Shown here piece after piece: positions 43,690 to 49,334 of a DNA stretch of 64,000 nucleotides (position 1 is its first letter; each line of letters begins with the position of its first letter). The DNA is from Spirochaetae bacterium HGW-Spirochaetae-3 (GTDB taxonomy: Bacteria > Spirochaetota > Spirochaetia > Treponematales > UBA12059). The stretch spans positions 125,176 through 189,175 of the forward strand of contig PGXV01000006.1 in NCBI GenBank assembly GCA_002839315.1. The letters are read 5' to 3'. A program made the position numbers and the translations under genes. A model generated the notes under the pieces. That model did no database searches. It had not been told where the DNA came from and saw only the letters and a program-made list of their open reading frames with translations.

Positions 43690-43989
43690 ATGTACGTGAT
43701 CATCGTCGATATAATCGTCAAGGACGGATTCGAGGACAGGTACCGCGACGCCGTCATGATACACGCGCGTACCTGCCTGTCCCTGGAAGAGTCCTGCCTG
43801 CGGTTCGACGTGCTCCAGGCGCCGGGCGACGCGCGTCGCTTTACCCTATGCGAGGCTTACCCCGACGAGGCGACGTTCATGAACGTACACCGGAAGACGG
43901 CGCACTTCGAGCGCTACCTGGAAACCACGACGGCATGGGTTCAGAGCAAGGACGCGCGGACCTTTACGAGGTTGTACCCCGAGGATTGA
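43690..43989 (+). CDS. ABM-domain (LsrG/YgiN-like) protein
   Basis: A 99-aa antibiotic-biosynthesis-monooxygenase-fold protein: MYVIIVDIIVKDGFEDRYRDA, ESCLRFDVLQAPGDARRFTLCE, ETTTAWVQSK. Members form dimers with a ferredoxin-like fold; some are quinol monooxygenases, and LsrG acts on phospho-AI-2. It converges with the glyoxalase/transketolase operon and could handle a reactive intermediate of the same pathway, but this is only a neighbourhood argument. Confidence 0.85.
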   Translation: MYVIIVDIIVKDGFEDRYRDAVMIHARTCLSLEESCLRFDVLQAPGDARRFTLCEAYPDEATFMNVHRKTAHFERYLETTTAWVQSKDARTFTRLYPED

Positions 43990-44037
43990 GGCTCGGGAAC
44001 GGCGATTCGCCGCCGCTCCCGAACCATAGCTCCGATG

Positions 44038-44556
44038 TTATTCTCCTTTATAGTACTTCGAGTACTTCCCTCGTTTCAGCAGTGTCCCTAGCGCCCCGCC
44101 TATGAGCCCGATGGCGACGCGGAGCGCCTTCATGTCAATAAGCTCGACGAGGTTGCCGTCGGGATCCCTCATGAATACCCAGTCGACCGATCCCGTCCGC
44201 TGCGGGGGCGTGACGAAGTCCGCGCCACCGGATCTCAGGCGTTCATGCCAGCGCGAGACGTTAGTCACGTTCATCGCGAGGTGCGTGAACCCCGGCGCGT
44301 TCCAGACCGCGTCCCGCTTCTCGGCCTTGGGGCTGAATTCGAACAGTTCCAGGACCGATCCGCCGGGAGCCCTCAGGAATCCCATGCGAACCCGGGCGCC
44401 GTCAACCCCGTAGAGCGGGAACAGCGCTCTTGTCGCGGATGGTTCCAGCGTGTCCTCCGATATGAGGAGGAAGCCGAACGTCTCGTGGTACCAGCGTACC
44501 GAGGCCTCGAAGTCCGATACTGTCAATCCGGCGTGGCAGATTGAATGCGCCTTCAT
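44038..44556 (-). CDS. Glyoxalase/VOC-fold protein, last gene of the SCP2/transketolase operon
   Basis: A 172-aa vicinal-oxygen-chelate protein. Two beta-alpha-beta-beta-beta modules are visible: HAGLTVSDFEASVRWYHETF with VLELFEFSP, and THLAMNVTNVSRWHERL with FMRDPDGNLVELIDM, giving candidate metal ligands (His near residue 8, Glu near 70, His near 91 and Glu near 140). A short positively charged tail follows. The reaction could be lyase, isomerase or dioxygenase. It lies 10 nt after the second SCP2-like gene. Confidence 0.85.
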   Translation of the reverse strand: MKAHSICHAGLTVSDFEASVRWYHETFGFLLISEDTLEPSATRALFPLYGVDGARVRMGFLRAPGGSVLELFEFSPKAEKRDAVWNAPGFTHLAMNVTNVSRWHERLRSGGADFVTPPQRTGSVDWVFMRDPDGNLVELIDMKALRVAIGLIGGALGTLLKRGKYSKYYKGE

Positions 44557-44566
44557 ACCTCGCCCC

Positions 44567-45373
44567 CTACTTCGCGTAGCTACCGACGAGCATCATGTAC
44601 TCGCCGATGGCCGCCCCGTATTCCGGCGCGCCCTTCATGATGATACGGCCGGCCTTCGTGGCCTCGACCATGTCGTCGGTCGACAGGAGTATGCCGAGCG
44701 CGCTCGTCGTAGAGTCGAAGCTCATCGTGAAGAACGGTTTCGCCCGCTCGTACGTTCCCCGCGCCGCGCGGCTGTTGCCGGCCTTGATCCTGAGGTAGGC
44801 CGACAGCTCCGGCCTTCCCTCGACGGTCCACGCGTAAACGCGGTCCGGGCTCGCCTTGACCCACTTGGCTACGTCCGGATGCCCCGCCTTGTTCAGCCGG
44901 CTTATGCCCGACGACAGCAGGTAGAAGTACATCTTGACGACCATCGATCGGGTCGCCTCGTCGTCAGGCGCTTCTTGAACCCCGAGCGCGGCCGCCATCG
45001 CTAGCAGCGCCTTGAAGGTGGATACGAGGATGCCCGGATGCCTGAGCCCGCCCTTTATCCTGGGTAGCTTCTTCGACTTGCCCGAAAAGAAACCGTTGAG
45101 GGCGGCGACCGACGGGAACTCCAGCTCCACGTCGGGCGTCTCGAACAGGCCCTTGCCGAAGCGGAGCGCCCCGTCCTCTATGAGGAAGTGCGTGCCTATC
45201 TTCGGGGCGCCGTAGACGCTCTCGCGATTCCCGGTGAGGGCGCTCACCTGGACGGCGCCGTTCTTCCCGGCGAAGCCCTTCTTGACGCTCTCCTTGTCCT
45301 CGGCTATCACCTTGAGGAGGGGGAGGGCTGCGCCGAGGAATATCCTCGACGCGTACAGTTCGTCGTCGCCCAT
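44567..45373 (-). CDS. SCP2-like protein B
   Basis: A 268-aa protein resembling a tandem sterol-carrier-protein-2 fold, which forms a hydrophobic cavity for lipids or other apolar ligands. Key segment: VELEFPSVAALNGFFSG followed by LPRIKGGL; the matching segment in the paralogue reads INLWFPNAAALNAMFAG and IPIKGL, so the two genes are related. The C-terminal half has a second module (AYLRIKAGNSRAARGTYERA, SALGILLSTDDMVEATKAG). No signal peptide, so cytosolic. The gene follows the transketolase C subunit by 2 nt. The ligand is unknown. Confidence 0.6.
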   Translation of the reverse strand: MGDDELYASRIFLGAALPLLKVIAEDKESVKKGFAGKNGAVQVSALTGNRESVYGAPKIGTHFLIEDGALRFGKGLFETPDVELEFPSVAALNGFFSGKSKKLPRIKGGLRHPGILVSTFKALLAMAAALGVQEAPDDEATRSMVVKMYFYLLSSGISRLNKAGHPDVAKWVKASPDRVYAWTVEGRPELSAYLRIKAGNSRAARGTYERAKPFFTMSFDSTTSALGILLSTDDMVEATKAGRIIMKGAPEYGAAIGEYMMLVGSYAK

Positions 45374-45375
45374 AG

Positions 45376-46383
45376 CTAGACCTCGTCTTCCCAGTTATCG
45401 TCGGCCTCGAAGTCCTTGCCCATCATCTCGCGCACGGAGGCGGCTATGCCGTTCTCGTCGATGCCGTAGTGAGCGAGCAGGTCCTCGTGCAGGCCTATGA
45501 TGGAGAAGCAGTCGGGGACGCCGAGGCGCTTGAAGCTGAAGGCCTTGCCGGTGCTCGCCGCTACCTCGGCGACGGCGCTGCCGAGTCCTCCTATCGTTGA
45601 GTGATCCTCGACGGTGATGACGCGCCTCGTCTCCTTGACCGCCCGCTCCACGGCCTCGACGTCGATCGGCTTGATCGTATGCATGTTGAGCACGCGCACC
45701 TTGAGGCCGTCGACCTTCTCCAGCATCTTGGCCGCCTCGAGCGCGCGCCAAACGGTGGCGCCGCAGGCGATGATGGTCAGGTCGGAGCCCTCGTGCAGGG
45801 TAACGGCTTTCCCGATCTGGAAGCCGTAGTCCGGCTTGTCGTAGACGACCTGGTCGAACCCGCGGTTGATGCGTATGTACACGGGGCCCTTGCGGTCGTA
45901 CGCCGCGCGTACCGCGTGGGCCGTCTCTATGCCGTCGGCCGGTACGATGACGGTCATGTTGGCCATCGAGCGCATGATCGCTATGTCCTCGGTGCAATGG
46001 TGCGTCGTGCCGGCCTGCCCGAACGACAGGCCCGCGTGCGTCGCTATCATCTTGACGTCGAGGTTCTGGTAGCAGATGTCGGTGTGCACCTGGTCGAGCG
46101 CGCGCATCGAGGTAAAGATGGCGAACGTGGAGACGTAGGGGACGAGCCCGGTCTTGGCCATGCCGGCCGCCATGCCGAACATGTTCTGCTCGGCTATGCC
46201 GACGTTGAAGAAACGCCCCGGGAATTTATCGCCGAACACGCCGATCTTCGTCGACTTGGCCAGGTCGGCCGACAGGCCTACTATCTCGGGATGCTCGTCG
46301 CCCAGGTCGCACAGGGTCTGCCCGTATATCTCCGCCGTCGACATCTTGGCCGCGTCGAGCATGGTAAAGGTCATGCCGCTCAT
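45376..46383 (-). CDS. Transketolase, C-terminal subunit
   Basis: A 335-aa subunit holding the pyrimidine-binding and C-terminal domains of a split transketolase: RFFNVGIAEQNMFGMAAGMA (with the conserved Glu that activates TPP), GLSFGQAGTTHHCTEDIAIM and RVLNMHTIKPID. Together with the N-subunit encoded just upstream it would transfer two-carbon ketol groups between sugars or to an aldehyde acceptor. ATG 46383 overlaps the N-subunit stop (ATGA) and follows AAGGA. Split transketolases are common in archaea and in special-purpose bacterial pathways. Confidence 0.93.
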   Translation of the reverse strand: MSGMTFTMLDAAKMSTAEIYGQTLCDLGDEHPEIVGLSADLAKSTKIGVFGDKFPGRFFNVGIAEQNMFGMAAGMAKTGLVPYVSTFAIFTSMRALDQVHTDICYQNLDVKMIATHAGLSFGQAGTTHHCTEDIAIMRSMANMTVIVPADGIETAHAVRAAYDRKGPVYIRINRGFDQVVYDKPDYGFQIGKAVTLHEGSDLTIIACGATVWRALEAAKMLEKVDGLKVRVLNMHTIKPIDVEAVERAVKETRRVITVEDHSTIGGLGSAVAEVAASTGKAFSFKRLGVPDCFSIIGLHEDLLAHYGIDENGIAASVREMMGKDFEADDNWEDEV

Positions 46384-47249
46384 TTCGCCGTTCCTTTCTC
46401 GCCGGAGGCCCTGGCCGCGTGGAAGCGCGCGAGGCTCTCCTTGGCCTTGGCCGTCTTCTCTCCGTCGAAGCCGCCGTAGTGCCACTTGTAGTCGCCCGAT
46501 ATGAAGTCTATGCCGCAGCCCTTGATCGTATTCGCTATGATGACGACCGGCTTTTCCCTGGCCGCGGCCGCCGTATCCAACGCGGCCGCGAGCGAGTCGA
46601 AGTCGTGCCCGTCCGCCTCTACCACCTCGAAGCCGAAGGCGCGCCACTTGTCGGCGAACGGTTCGAGGGCCATCACCTCCTCGGTCGGGCCGTCTATCAT
46701 GCACTTGTTACGGTCGACGATGGTCACCAGGTTGGTCGCCTTGAAGTGGGCGGCGGCCATCGCCGATTCCCATACCTCGCCCTCGTCGCACTCGCCGTCC
46801 CCGAGCAGCACGTACGTCTTCCAGTCTCGGCCCTGGAGCCTGGCTCCGAGCGCCATGCCCAGCCCGATGGCCAGGCCGTGCCCGAGCGAGCCGGTGGACG
46901 CCTCTACGCCGGTGACCTTCCTGGAGTCCAGATGCATGCCGAGCGGGCTACCGGTGTGGTTGTACTCCTTGAGCAGTTCCTTGTCGAAGTAGCCGAGGTC
47001 GGCGAGTACGGGCGCGTATCCGACCCCGACGTGCCCCTTGGACAGGATGAAGCGGTCGCGGTCGGGCATGGCCGGGTTCTTCGGGTCGATCCTCATGTAC
47101 TTGTGGTACAGGATGGTCATGATGTCCATCGCCGACATCGAGCCGCCGACGTGGCCCGAGCCAGCCCATACGATCGTGTCTACGCAGAGCGTCCGCAATT
47201 CGTGCGCCTTGTCTTCCAGGCGGCGCTTATCCTCGGTCGTGAGTGCCAT
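46380..47249 (-). CDS. Transketolase, N-terminal subunit
   Basis: A 289-aa TPP-diphosphate-binding subunit. The thiamine motif runs from GDGECDEG to NK about 30 residues later (VTIVDRNKCMIDG). Substrate and cofactor histidines are visible in GSGHVGGSMS, SKGHVGVGYAP and STGSLGHGLAIGLG. It forms one enzyme with the C subunit. The start is 2 nt after the aminotransferase stop, so production is coordinated. A catalytic link between the two enzymes (a ketose made by one and aminated by the other) is inferred from the operon. Confidence 0.94.
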   Translation of the reverse strand: MALTTEDKRRLEDKAHELRTLCVDTIVWAGSGHVGGSMSAMDIMTILYHKYMRIDPKNPAMPDRDRFILSKGHVGVGYAPVLADLGYFDKELLKEYNHTGSPLGMHLDSRKVTGVEASTGSLGHGLAIGLGMALGARLQGRDWKTYVLLGDGECDEGEVWESAMAAAHFKATNLVTIVDRNKCMIDGPTEEVMALEPFADKWRAFGFEVVEADGHDFDSLAAALDTAAAAREKPVVIIANTIKGCGIDFISGDYKWHYGGFDGEKTAKAKESLARFHAARASGEKGTAK

Positions 47250-47251
47250 GG

Positions 47252-48520
47252 TTACCGGCCTTTCCGGGCCGACGCGGGCCCGTCTTTCGAGACGGCGGCG
47301 AACGCTTCGTCGGCTACCTCGAGCGTAAAAGCTATGTCCTCGTCGGACAGCGCCGCGTTGATGAATTGATTATGATGATTCGTGAAGAAGACGCCGCGTC
47401 GCACGCATTCCGAGACCCAGGCCTGGTGCAGGTCGAAGTTGGGATCGTTGGCCATGTCCATGAACCACATGGCGGGCTCTCCCGATATCCGTAGCTCGTA
47501 GCCGTGCTTCTTCCCGGCCTCTACGAGTCCGCTCGTCAGTTTCTTGCCCTTCTCGGTGCAGACCTTCGCCGAGTCTATCTTCCTCATCTTCGTGATGCAG
47601 GCGATGGCCGCCGCGATCGGAACCGCGGAAAGCCAGTAAGAGCCCGTGTACATAACCGAGCCGGCGGCTTCCTTGAGCCATTCCTTGCCGCAGACCGAGG
47701 ATATGTTCCAGCCGTTGGCGAGCGCCTTGCAGAAGCACTCGATGTCGGCCTCGAAACCGTAATGAGCGTCCGAGCCGCGTACGTCGAGGCGGAAGCCGCA
47801 TCGCACGTCGTCTATCGCCAGCACGACGCCCTCGCGGGTGCACAGCTCCCTGACCTTCTTCCAGTATCCATCGGGCGGGAGCCTGTTGGGCTCGAACACC
47901 GGATGGTGGTACGGCGTGGCCATATAGCACGCGATCTTGCCGCGGTTCTCGGCGAATAGCCTCTCGAGCCCTTCATAGTCGCCGAACTCCACGTACAGGT
48001 TATTGGCGATATCCTCGGCCGTCACGCCTGGATGCCCCGCCTTCTGGGTCCACGGAGCGACGCCGTGATAGCCGCCCCTGGTCAGGACGATCTTGCTCCG
48101 GCCGGTCGCCGCCCTGGCGATCATGATCGCGAACATGGTGGTATCCCCGCCGTTCTTCGCGAAGAAGGCCCAGTCGGCCATGTCCACCGTGTCGACCATG
48201 AGCTCCCCGAGCTCGACCATCTTGGCGGTCGGGAAGGATACGCAGTTACCGTCCTTCATCTGCGCCTTGACCGCGGCGTCCACGTCCGGGTCGTTATAGC
48301 CCAGGATATTCGGGCCGTAGGCGCACATGTAGTCGATGAAGCGGTTGCCGTCGACGTCCCAGAAGTACGAGCCTTCCGCGCGGGAGGAGAAGAGGGGATA
48401 GGCGTCTATAGGCATGAAGCAACCCTCGGCGGGACCGAGGTGGCCGTACACGCCGCCCGGTATGACCTTGGCAGCCCGCATGAAAAGCTCTCTGCTCTTC
48501 GGATAGGTATAGGTGTTCAT
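47252..48520 (-). CDS. Class-III PLP aminotransferase (glutamate-semialdehyde-aminomutase-like)
   Basis: A 422-aa fold-type I enzyme related to glutamate-1-semialdehyde aminomutase. The Schiff-base lysine is Lys265 in CFCKALANGWN; the pyridine-nitrogen Asp237 is in AIDDVRCGFRLD; the phosphate-site region is KNGGDTTMFAIMIARAATG, followed by YHG. The middle Asp-Asp replaces the more usual Asp-Glu. Whether it transaminates, mutates or epimerises cannot be told from sequence; no other haem-biosynthesis gene is nearby, so a role in ALA synthesis is unlikely. It lies 12 nt after SCP2-like A. Confidence 0.9.
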   Translation of the reverse strand: MNTYTYPKSRELFMRAAKVIPGGVYGHLGPAEGCFMPIDAYPLFSSRAEGSYFWDVDGNRFIDYMCAYGPNILGYNDPDVDAAVKAQMKDGNCVSFPTAKMVELGELMVDTVDMADWAFFAKNGGDTTMFAIMIARAATGRSKIVLTRGGYHGVAPWTQKAGHPGVTAEDIANNLYVEFGDYEGLERLFAENRGKIACYMATPYHHPVFEPNRLPPDGYWKKVRELCTREGVVLAIDDVRCGFRLDVRGSDAHYGFEADIECFCKALANGWNISSVCGKEWLKEAAGSVMYTGSYWLSAVPIAAAIACITKMRKIDSAKVCTEKGKKLTSGLVEAGKKHGYELRISGEPAMWFMDMANDPNFDLHQAWVSECVRRGVFFTNHHNQFINAALSDEDIAFTLEVADEAFAAVSKDGPASARKGR

Positions 48521-48532
48521 CGCATCTCCTCC

Positions 48533-49288
48533 TTAGCTCAGGTAGCGGGGCACGAGGCCGAGTATCTTGTTCATATGGTCGATGATGGGCGTATAGCCCC
48601 CTAACGCGACTTGCCCGGTACCTATGGCCATATATGCCGAAAGTTCGCCTCGGATGAGGGCCCCCGCGTCGTCTAGGCTCGCGAATACCATGCGGGCTCG
48701 GTTTTCCGGAGCCCGGCCTTTTTTCGTCTCGAGCTTGCCGCCCGTGGCGACGACGCTGACGGCGGGGCCGCCGCTGGTCGATATGAGGATGCCTCCGTCG
48801 GCCATCCGCGCGGCGTTGACCTTTCCGTCCGGGTCGTTATTTGCTATCTCGGAGAGCGCGTAGAACGCTGTGTACAGCGACAGCTCGGCGTTGGCCCGGC
48901 GATACGCGGCGTCCTTGAGCAGTTCCGGCTTGGCTCGTAGGTAGTGGGTCAGGCGATCCGTCAGCGTCGTGAACGGACCCTTCAGGTAGGCTATCTTGGT
49001 AAGTCCCTTGATCGGGATTGGATTGCCCGTCCCCGCGAACATCGCGTTGAGCGCCGCCGCGTTCGGGAACCAGAGATTGATAGTCGCCCCGCCGCCGCCC
49101 GGCATGAACTCGATGCCGCCGTTCCCCACGGCGAGCCTGGCCTTGCCGACTCCGCCTACGGTGAATTGAATTACCTCTCGCTTACCGTTAGCGATCTTCC
49201 GCGTTTCTTCGTCGTGGCCTGGAAGCCCCTCGAGCGTGCGGAGCACCGCGAATAGGTTGACGCGCGCCAGCGTTACCTGATCGACCAT
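48533..49288 (-). CDS. SCP2-like protein A, first gene of the transketolase/aminotransferase operon
   Basis: A 251-aa relative of SCP2-like B. The first module is RKIANGKREVIQFTVGGVGK, INLWFPNAAALNAMFAG and IPIKGLTKIAYLKGP; the second module contains AARMADGGILISTSGGP and GALIRGELSAYMAIG. It has no signal peptide. GGGAGGTAATGC precedes the ATG. Two different SCP2-like proteins bracketing sugar-type enzymes is unusual: they may carry a hydrophobic substrate or form a heterodimeric binding unit; this is inference. The promoter has a TetR-like operator. Confidence 0.6.
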   Translation of the reverse strand: MVDQVTLARVNLFAVLRTLEGLPGHDEETRKIANGKREVIQFTVGGVGKARLAVGNGGIEFMPGGGGATINLWFPNAAALNAMFAGTGNPIPIKGLTKIAYLKGPFTTLTDRLTHYLRAKPELLKDAAYRRANAELSLYTAFYALSEIANNDPDGKVNAARMADGGILISTSGGPAVSVVATGGKLETKKGRAPENRARMVFASLDDAGALIRGELSAYMAIGTGQVALGGYTPIIDHMNKILGLVPRYLS

Positions 49289-49307
49289 GCATTACCTCCC
49301 TGTCGTT

Positions 49308-49334
49308 TTCAATTGTACGAGCGAGCACTCGCTC
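49308..49334 (-). promoter_or_regulatory. Promoter region of the SCP2/transketolase operon with TetR-like operator
   Basis: GAGCGAG-CA-CTCGCTC (49319-49334) is a perfect 7+7 palindrome of the kind bound by TetR-family repressors. On the minus strand it lies immediately before TACAAT, a good -10 box, so it fills the spacer between -35 and -10. The repressor is not encoded in the operon. The rest of the gap to 49479 shows nothing else. Confidence 0.6.

Follow-up and report, generated by a model that had tools for sequence, protein, structure and literature searches.

A conserved operon joining paired SCP2-fold proteins, a FumI-like aminotransferase and a split transketolase, with a possible role in long-chain aminodiol metabolism

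A 64,000-nucleotide stretch of the genome of Spirochaetae bacterium HGW-Spirochaetae-3 (GCA_002839315.1, contig PGXV01000006.1, positions 125,176 to 189,175, hereafter the window) carries an operon for two SCP2-like proteins, A and B, a class-III aminotransferase (AT) and the N- and C-terminal subunits of a split transketolase (TKN and TKC). Its gene order is conserved in three phyla. The parts are of known kinds, while their combination and the route proposed here are, as far as could be tested, new. That the aminotransferase and the transketolase pair interconvert a lipid aminodiol and an aldehyde has about an even chance of being correct. A fuller proposal falls somewhat short of that: an anaerobe-compatible route, in gut and rumen Clostridia and in Spirochaetota, that takes sphingoid bases apart, or makes them, by means of transamination, transketolase ketol transfer and a pair of SCP2 carriers. 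Slightly more tentative again is our preferred reading of the operon, as a breakdown pathway for long-chain 2-amino-1,3-diols of the sphingoid-base type. The substrates, the direction and the roles of SCP2-like A and B are as we infer them.

In the window, the five genes and a downstream gene for a VOC/glyoxalase-fold protein form a tight array on the minus strand, with gaps of 12, 2, -4, 2 and 10 nt from SCP2-like A to VOC. All six were found where the earlier note on this DNA, made from its letters alone, had placed them. The AT, TKN, TKC and VOC domains score well over the Pfam cut-offs. A scan of genome contigs with an SCP2-like B alignment yielded 308 contig stretches encoding a relative, of which the best 80 were kept as related loci. 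The order SCP2-like A, AT, TKN, TKC, SCP2-like B, on one strand, was present in all 66 complete loci, and the remaining 14 contain a partial run in unchanged order. Most of these run off the end of a contig; in the Austwickia locus (L118), no SCP2-like A was detected. The carriers belong to the Spirochaetota, the Bacillota (for the most part Clostridia of gut and rumen, together with Oceanirhabdus, whose O. seepicola is in culture) and the Actinomycetota, including Austwickia chelonae. Such a fixed order is far beyond chance, and the conserved gene order for which the earlier note proposed a search is thus borne out across three phyla. Since the neighbours differ among the relatives G003, G004, G028 and G025 of the window genome, the operon travels or persists as a unit. 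No additional gene cluster recurs beside it in most of the 80 loci. The SecA, peptidase and EamA neighbours seen in gut Clostridia were judged to be lineage-specific synteny and not functional, and spread by plasmids was set aside, as PLSDB held no TKC match at E 1e-80.

The aminotransferase (422 aa, 47252..48520) belongs, on sequence comparison, to a FumI-like clade and is not a haem enzyme. Its best PDB match is FumI, an aminopentol aminotransferase (6hbs, 323 bits over 406 residues), as against 162 bits for the best glutamate-1-semialdehyde (GSA) aminomutase. The score against the NCBIfam HemL equivalog TIGR00713 is 198.8 bits, for a cut-off of 527. In a maximum-likelihood tree, the operon ATs form one clade (100/100), which FumI, on a long branch, and a second AT group join apart from HemL (98/97). 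The sequences of FumI and of the Carboxydothermus hydrogenoformans transketolase used in these comparisons were partial ones taken from alignments. A haem (GSA aminomutase) role was rejected on the NCBIfam score and the tree. With hydrolysed fumonisin B1 as substrate, FumI passes the 2-amino group to pyruvate (PMC2933618), and fumonisins are described as resembling sphingosine and sphinganine in structure (PMC9858248).

The second AT group has no adjacent transketolase (G015, G020, G022, G033, G036, G038, G041, G044 and G050) and lies directly after an SCP2-A homologue wherever the upstream sequence was read. The pairing of SCP2 and AT therefore probably predates the link with transketolase. 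Such pairs were seen in order-level relatives of the window genome (L055, L056, L057, L058, L060, L061 and L062), often adjoining DUF819 or CitMHS-type transporter genes. On contig C18 of the window genome, a further class-III aminotransferase gene (L212:5654-7114) lies beside sugar-kinase and aldolase-type genes, and the same contig carries an aldehyde:ferredoxin oxidoreductase (AFOR)-like gene (L212:11331-13124).

The transketolase is split into TKN, the thiamine diphosphate (ThDP) subunit (289 aa, 46380..47249, Pfam PF00456 at 1.5e-47), and TKC, the Pyr and C subunit (335 aa, 45376..46383, PF02779 and PF02780). The nearest solved relative of both is the split transketolase of C. hydrogenoformans (6yak for TKN and 6yaj for TKC). 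In an alignment to E. coli TktA, the ThDP and catalytic residues E411, H26, H66, H100, H261 and H473 are invariant among operon members, and the window TKN keeps the ThDP and substrate histidines. The acceptor and phosphate site is altered. R358, which we take to be the phosphate ligand in transketolase structures, is replaced in 76 of 76 operon TKCs, window included, by A (65), S (9) or G (2), and it is kept in 23 of 23 other split transketolases of related genomes. The equivalents of D469 and E468 are Ala and Gln, respectively, in all 76; in the window TKC the R358 and D469 equivalents are both Ala. In the E. coli enzyme, D469 mutations widen the acceptor range to linear aliphatic aldehydes, with D469A improving propionaldehyde activity only (ratio to glycolaldehyde 0.04 to 0.20; PMC3657141). 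Other transketolase genes were found in all eight carriers tested, full-length and TktA-like in six of them. These genes and the active-site changes disfavour an ordinary pentose-phosphate transketolase. Thus the outcome that the earlier note had named as fatal to its proposal, ordinary haem and pentose-phosphate enzymes, did not emerge, given the negative HemL score and tree and the loss of R358 and D469 in 76 of 76 operons.

Two transketolase loci elsewhere deserve mention. In G002, a related split pair (L183:7109-11601) is followed directly by an AFOR-like gene and preceded by an apparent phosphosulfolactate-synthase-type gene; this would be a different pathway, which may also yield an aldehyde. 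In the congeneric genome G005, only the operon-type transketolase pair is kept (L182:8231-10128), beside a class-I aldolase gene and a RelA/SpoT-like gene with a syntenic counterpart in the window.

SCP2-like A (251 aa, 48533..49288) and SCP2-like B (268 aa, 44567..45373) are each predicted, with high confidence, to have the SCP2 fold, in two tandem domains. AlphaFold2 models, made from alignment A3 for A and A2 for B, have mean pLDDT values of 91.2 and 87.3. By Foldseek and VIA-align, both match SCP2 structures (Z 12.4, root mean square deviation 2.6, 111-113 residues). The best Z of 12.4 belongs to the C-terminal half of each protein, some rows starting in the N-terminal half, and A reaches Z 12.4 against the SCP2L domain of human MFE-2. 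The window proteins have no Pfam or NCBIfam match, and a distant homologue of A scored 15.3 bits against PF02036, below its cut-off of 21.3. A and B are thus SCP2-like by fold and, by score, not Pfam members. The earlier note had taken them for paralogues and suggested structure prediction and pairwise comparison; both were run, and hhalign aligns A with B at a probability of 98.1% (E 6e-14). A contains an internal duplication (N half against C half, hhalign E 5e-9), and the halves of B gave no mutual match by sequence profile comparison. The ligands of SCP2 domains are hydrophobic; the solved structure 1pz4, for instance, contains a C16 fatty acid. By analogy, A and B may bind lipids.

A mechanism can be sketched from these features. 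SCP2-like A would hold the lipid amine and present it to the FumI-like AT, which would turn the 2-amine into a 2-ketone, the amino group passing to a keto acid. The resulting 1,3-dihydroxy-2-ketone would be a ketol of the kind that transketolases use as donor; its C1-C2 unit could be removed as a ThDP-bound ketol and passed into an aldose phosphate, with release of a long-chain fatty aldehyde. SCP2-like B may take up or deliver the hydrophobic partner. Where present, a reductase similar to BaiCD and old yellow enzyme (OYE) could saturate the 2-enal from a 4-ene base such as sphingosine, and AFOR or an aldehyde dehydrogenase (ALDH) could oxidise the aldehyde to a fatty acid. A TetR regulator acting at the operator would control expression of the operon.

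This operator is a TetR-type motif, GAGCGAGTGCTCGCTC, in the operon promoter (49319..49334, no strand assigned), 30 nt upstream of SCP2-like A. Its presence there, as read earlier, was confirmed by the single genomic match to the motif: the GAGYGAGNNYTCRCTC palindrome occurs once in the 3.88-Mb window genome, at 49319-49334. It occurs once each in G003, G004, G006 and G028 and twice in G025, and a reversed control pattern gave no match in the genomes scanned. With one letter relaxed, all eight matches in the 80 loci lie about 30-105 nt upstream of SCP2-like A. TetR genes recur near related operons, and a TetR of the window genome, encoded on contig C17 away from the operon, is 53% identical to the operon-linked TetR of G004. 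The additional operator in G025, the only second genomic copy seen, is located about 47 nt upstream of an MFS-like transporter open reading frame (L214:6746-8146), possibly an uptake gene of the same regulon.

Among the neighbours, an OYE-like reductase gene lies beside the operon at five loci (L069, L073, L074, L076 and L142), AFOR at three (L072, L076 and L079) and ALDH at two (L103 and L123). These genes fit the disposal of a long-chain aldehyde or 2-enal. Neither of two genes that the earlier note had drawn into the system belongs to its core. The VOC gene (172 aa, 44038..44556, Pfam PF00903 at 2.7e-19) is at the same place, downstream, in only a minority of the related operons and is accessory. 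The ABM-domain, LsrG-like gene (43690-43989; 44 bits for an LsrG equivalog cut-off of 135) exists and converges on the operon; with no ABM match at any of the 80 loci, it does not belong to the unit.

Several observations weigh against a breakdown of sphingoid bases. Natural sphinganine is 3R at C3, opposite to the D-ketose donors of transketolase. E. coli transketolase prefers and produces 3S (PMC3657141), so the stereochemistry would have to be different here. AT is only about 40% identical to FumI, and the tested FumI-type enzymes are more than 60% identical to one another (PMC9858248). D469 is also N, G or A in many other split transketolases; because of this variation, Ala at 469 is not unique to the operon, and a loss confined to it was dropped as a candidate. 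The phosphate-site residues S385, H461 and R520 are kept, which fits the probable use of a sugar phosphate in one half-reaction, and G026, the most distant order-level relative, retains R358. Most gut Clostridia copies are without an adjacent aldehyde or ene enzyme. Ceramidase is clear in only one of 17 carriers (Austwickia chelonae, a strong neutral ceramidase match of 474 bits), with weak fragments in another and none in 15, a pattern of little use as a general test of breakdown. Finally, the SCP2 and AT genes are absent in G005.

The same enzymes could run in the reverse direction, a ketol from a sugar phosphate being joined to a fatty aldehyde and the product aminated to give a sphingoid base without serine palmitoyltransferase. 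Both reactions are reversible, and the combination of a transketolase with a transaminase is already used in synthesis to obtain chiral aminodiols (PMC5073344). Moreover, the one alpha-oxoamine synthase that the TIGR01825 model found in the window genome is nearest to 2-amino-3-ketobutyrate CoA ligase (506 bits vs 263 for serine palmitoyltransferase), so that the search turned up no canonical sphingoid synthase. However, the recurring neighbours include no N-acyltransferase, kinase or head-group enzyme. The recurring ALDH, AFOR and OYE fit aldehyde disposal, though AFOR may work on acids in the reductive direction too, and inducible catabolic sets are the more usual setting for a dedicated TetR-type operator. 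Synthesis is considered unlikely. Breakdown is preferred, and is probably about twice as likely as synthesis, in view of the neighbours that handle aldehydes, the one dedicated operator and the absence of acyltransferase and head-group genes from the neighbours looked up.

Sphingoid bases need not be the substrate at all. The SCP2-like pair could carry another hydrophobic amine or ketone, such as a polyketide amino-polyol or an ether-lipid or hopanoid-like side chain, an explanation that is doubtful and yet less so than synthesis. The substrate of FumI is itself a polyketide-derived amino-polyol, and since R520, H461 and S385 remain in the transketolase, it is likely that a phosphate group is still present on one partner. 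Against this explanation, a polyketide or isoprenoid pathway in its own right should bring a recurring gene cluster with it, and none recurs at most of the 80 loci; hosts as far apart as rumen Clostridia and marine spirochaetes also point to a common substrate. Least probable, a little below synthesis, is a pathway for soluble amino sugars or aminopolyols in which the SCP2-like domains would be structural or assembly factors that bind no lipid. Split transketolases and class-III aminotransferases do often act on sugars, the G005 pair stands alone beside an aldolase gene, and the second AT group adjoins the two types of transporter gene named above. Such a pathway is at odds with a transketolase that is without the phosphate-binding arginine and Asp469 and with an AT that groups with FumI, not with sugar aminotransferases, and the conservation of two SCP2-fold proteins is difficult to account for unless they have a hydrophobic ligand. 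Of the two products suggested earlier, an amino-polyol or an aminated lipid head group, it is the latter that comes close to the sphingoid-base reading preferred here.

If the operon does break down or make sphingoid bases in this way, sphingolipid carbon would be linked to the pentose-phosphate pool without a kinase, a lyase or serine palmitoyltransferase. The operon would then explain in molecular terms how gut and rumen Clostridia turn over sphingolipids, or reveal another source of sphingoid bases in bacteria, and this in organisms for which the literature searched holds no such route. It would also be the natural counterpart of a biocatalytic cascade obtained by directed evolution, altered at the same position of the active site. 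Even with another lipid substrate, a five-gene unit that is shared by three phyla, encodes a pair of paralogous tandem SCP2-fold proteins and goes under no name that could be found is worth assigning.

Open-access full text in PMC, subscription papers being outside the search, contained no account of these genes as a set, nor of any transketolase route that leads to sphingoid bases or away from them. The operon, conserved in every complete locus, thus appears to be undescribed in open-access text, as the earlier note had supposed. Its statement that no named pathway joins a ketol transfer and a pyridoxal phosphate (PLP)-dependent transamination was too strong. Chemistry of the ketol-transfer type and PLP transamination are joined in the biosynthesis of the ansamycin precursor 3-amino-5-hydroxybenzoate (AHBA), in PigD/PigE of prodigiosin biosynthesis and in the synthetic transketolase/transaminase route.

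Each component of the operon has known counterparts. In fold, and probably in binding hydrophobic ligands, A and B resemble the SCP2 domains of MFE-2 (SCP2L), UbiJ and the C-terminal region of alkylsulfatase; unlike these, they have two tandem domains, form a conserved paralogue pair and, in the window, lie below Pfam detection. The split-chain transketolase of C. hydrogenoformans (6yaj/6yak) is likewise made of two subunits, but it keeps the R358, E468 and D469 equivalents where the operon enzyme has A/S/G, Q and A, together with other invariant changes. FumI, from the fumonisin-degradation cluster of Sphingopyxis sp. MTA144, is in the same class-III clade and deaminates C2 of a long-chain 2-amino-3-hydroxy compound. 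It differs in its distance from AT (about 40% identity) and in its substrate, hydrolysed fumonisin, which is without the C1 hydroxyl needed by a transketolase donor. To our knowledge, FumI has no SCP2 or transketolase partner genes.

As whole routes, three systems come near. In prodigiosin biosynthesis, as in the operon, a ThDP enzyme (PigD) is followed by a class-III aminotransferase (PigE) that acts on a lipid-derived aldehyde, and PigE was among the weak NCBIfam matches. However, PigD transfers acetaldehyde from pyruvate and not a ketol, no SCP2 proteins are involved and the product is another one. The sphingosine-1-phosphate lyase route leads to the product proposed for the operon, a long-chain aldehyde that is then oxidised, but the operon has no kinase or lyase, and its transamination and ketol transfer would keep two carbons in sugar phosphates. 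Among the neighbours assigned to families, none encoded a sphingosine-1-phosphate lyase or a sphingoid kinase, the genome as a whole not having been searched. The same reaction logic underlies the engineered combination of transketolase D469 variants with a transaminase to make 2-amino-1,3-diols, in which position 469 is likewise changed (PMC3657141, PMC5073344). That route is synthetic and starts from hydroxypyruvate and short or aromatic aldehydes, whereas the operon is natural and conserved across phyla.

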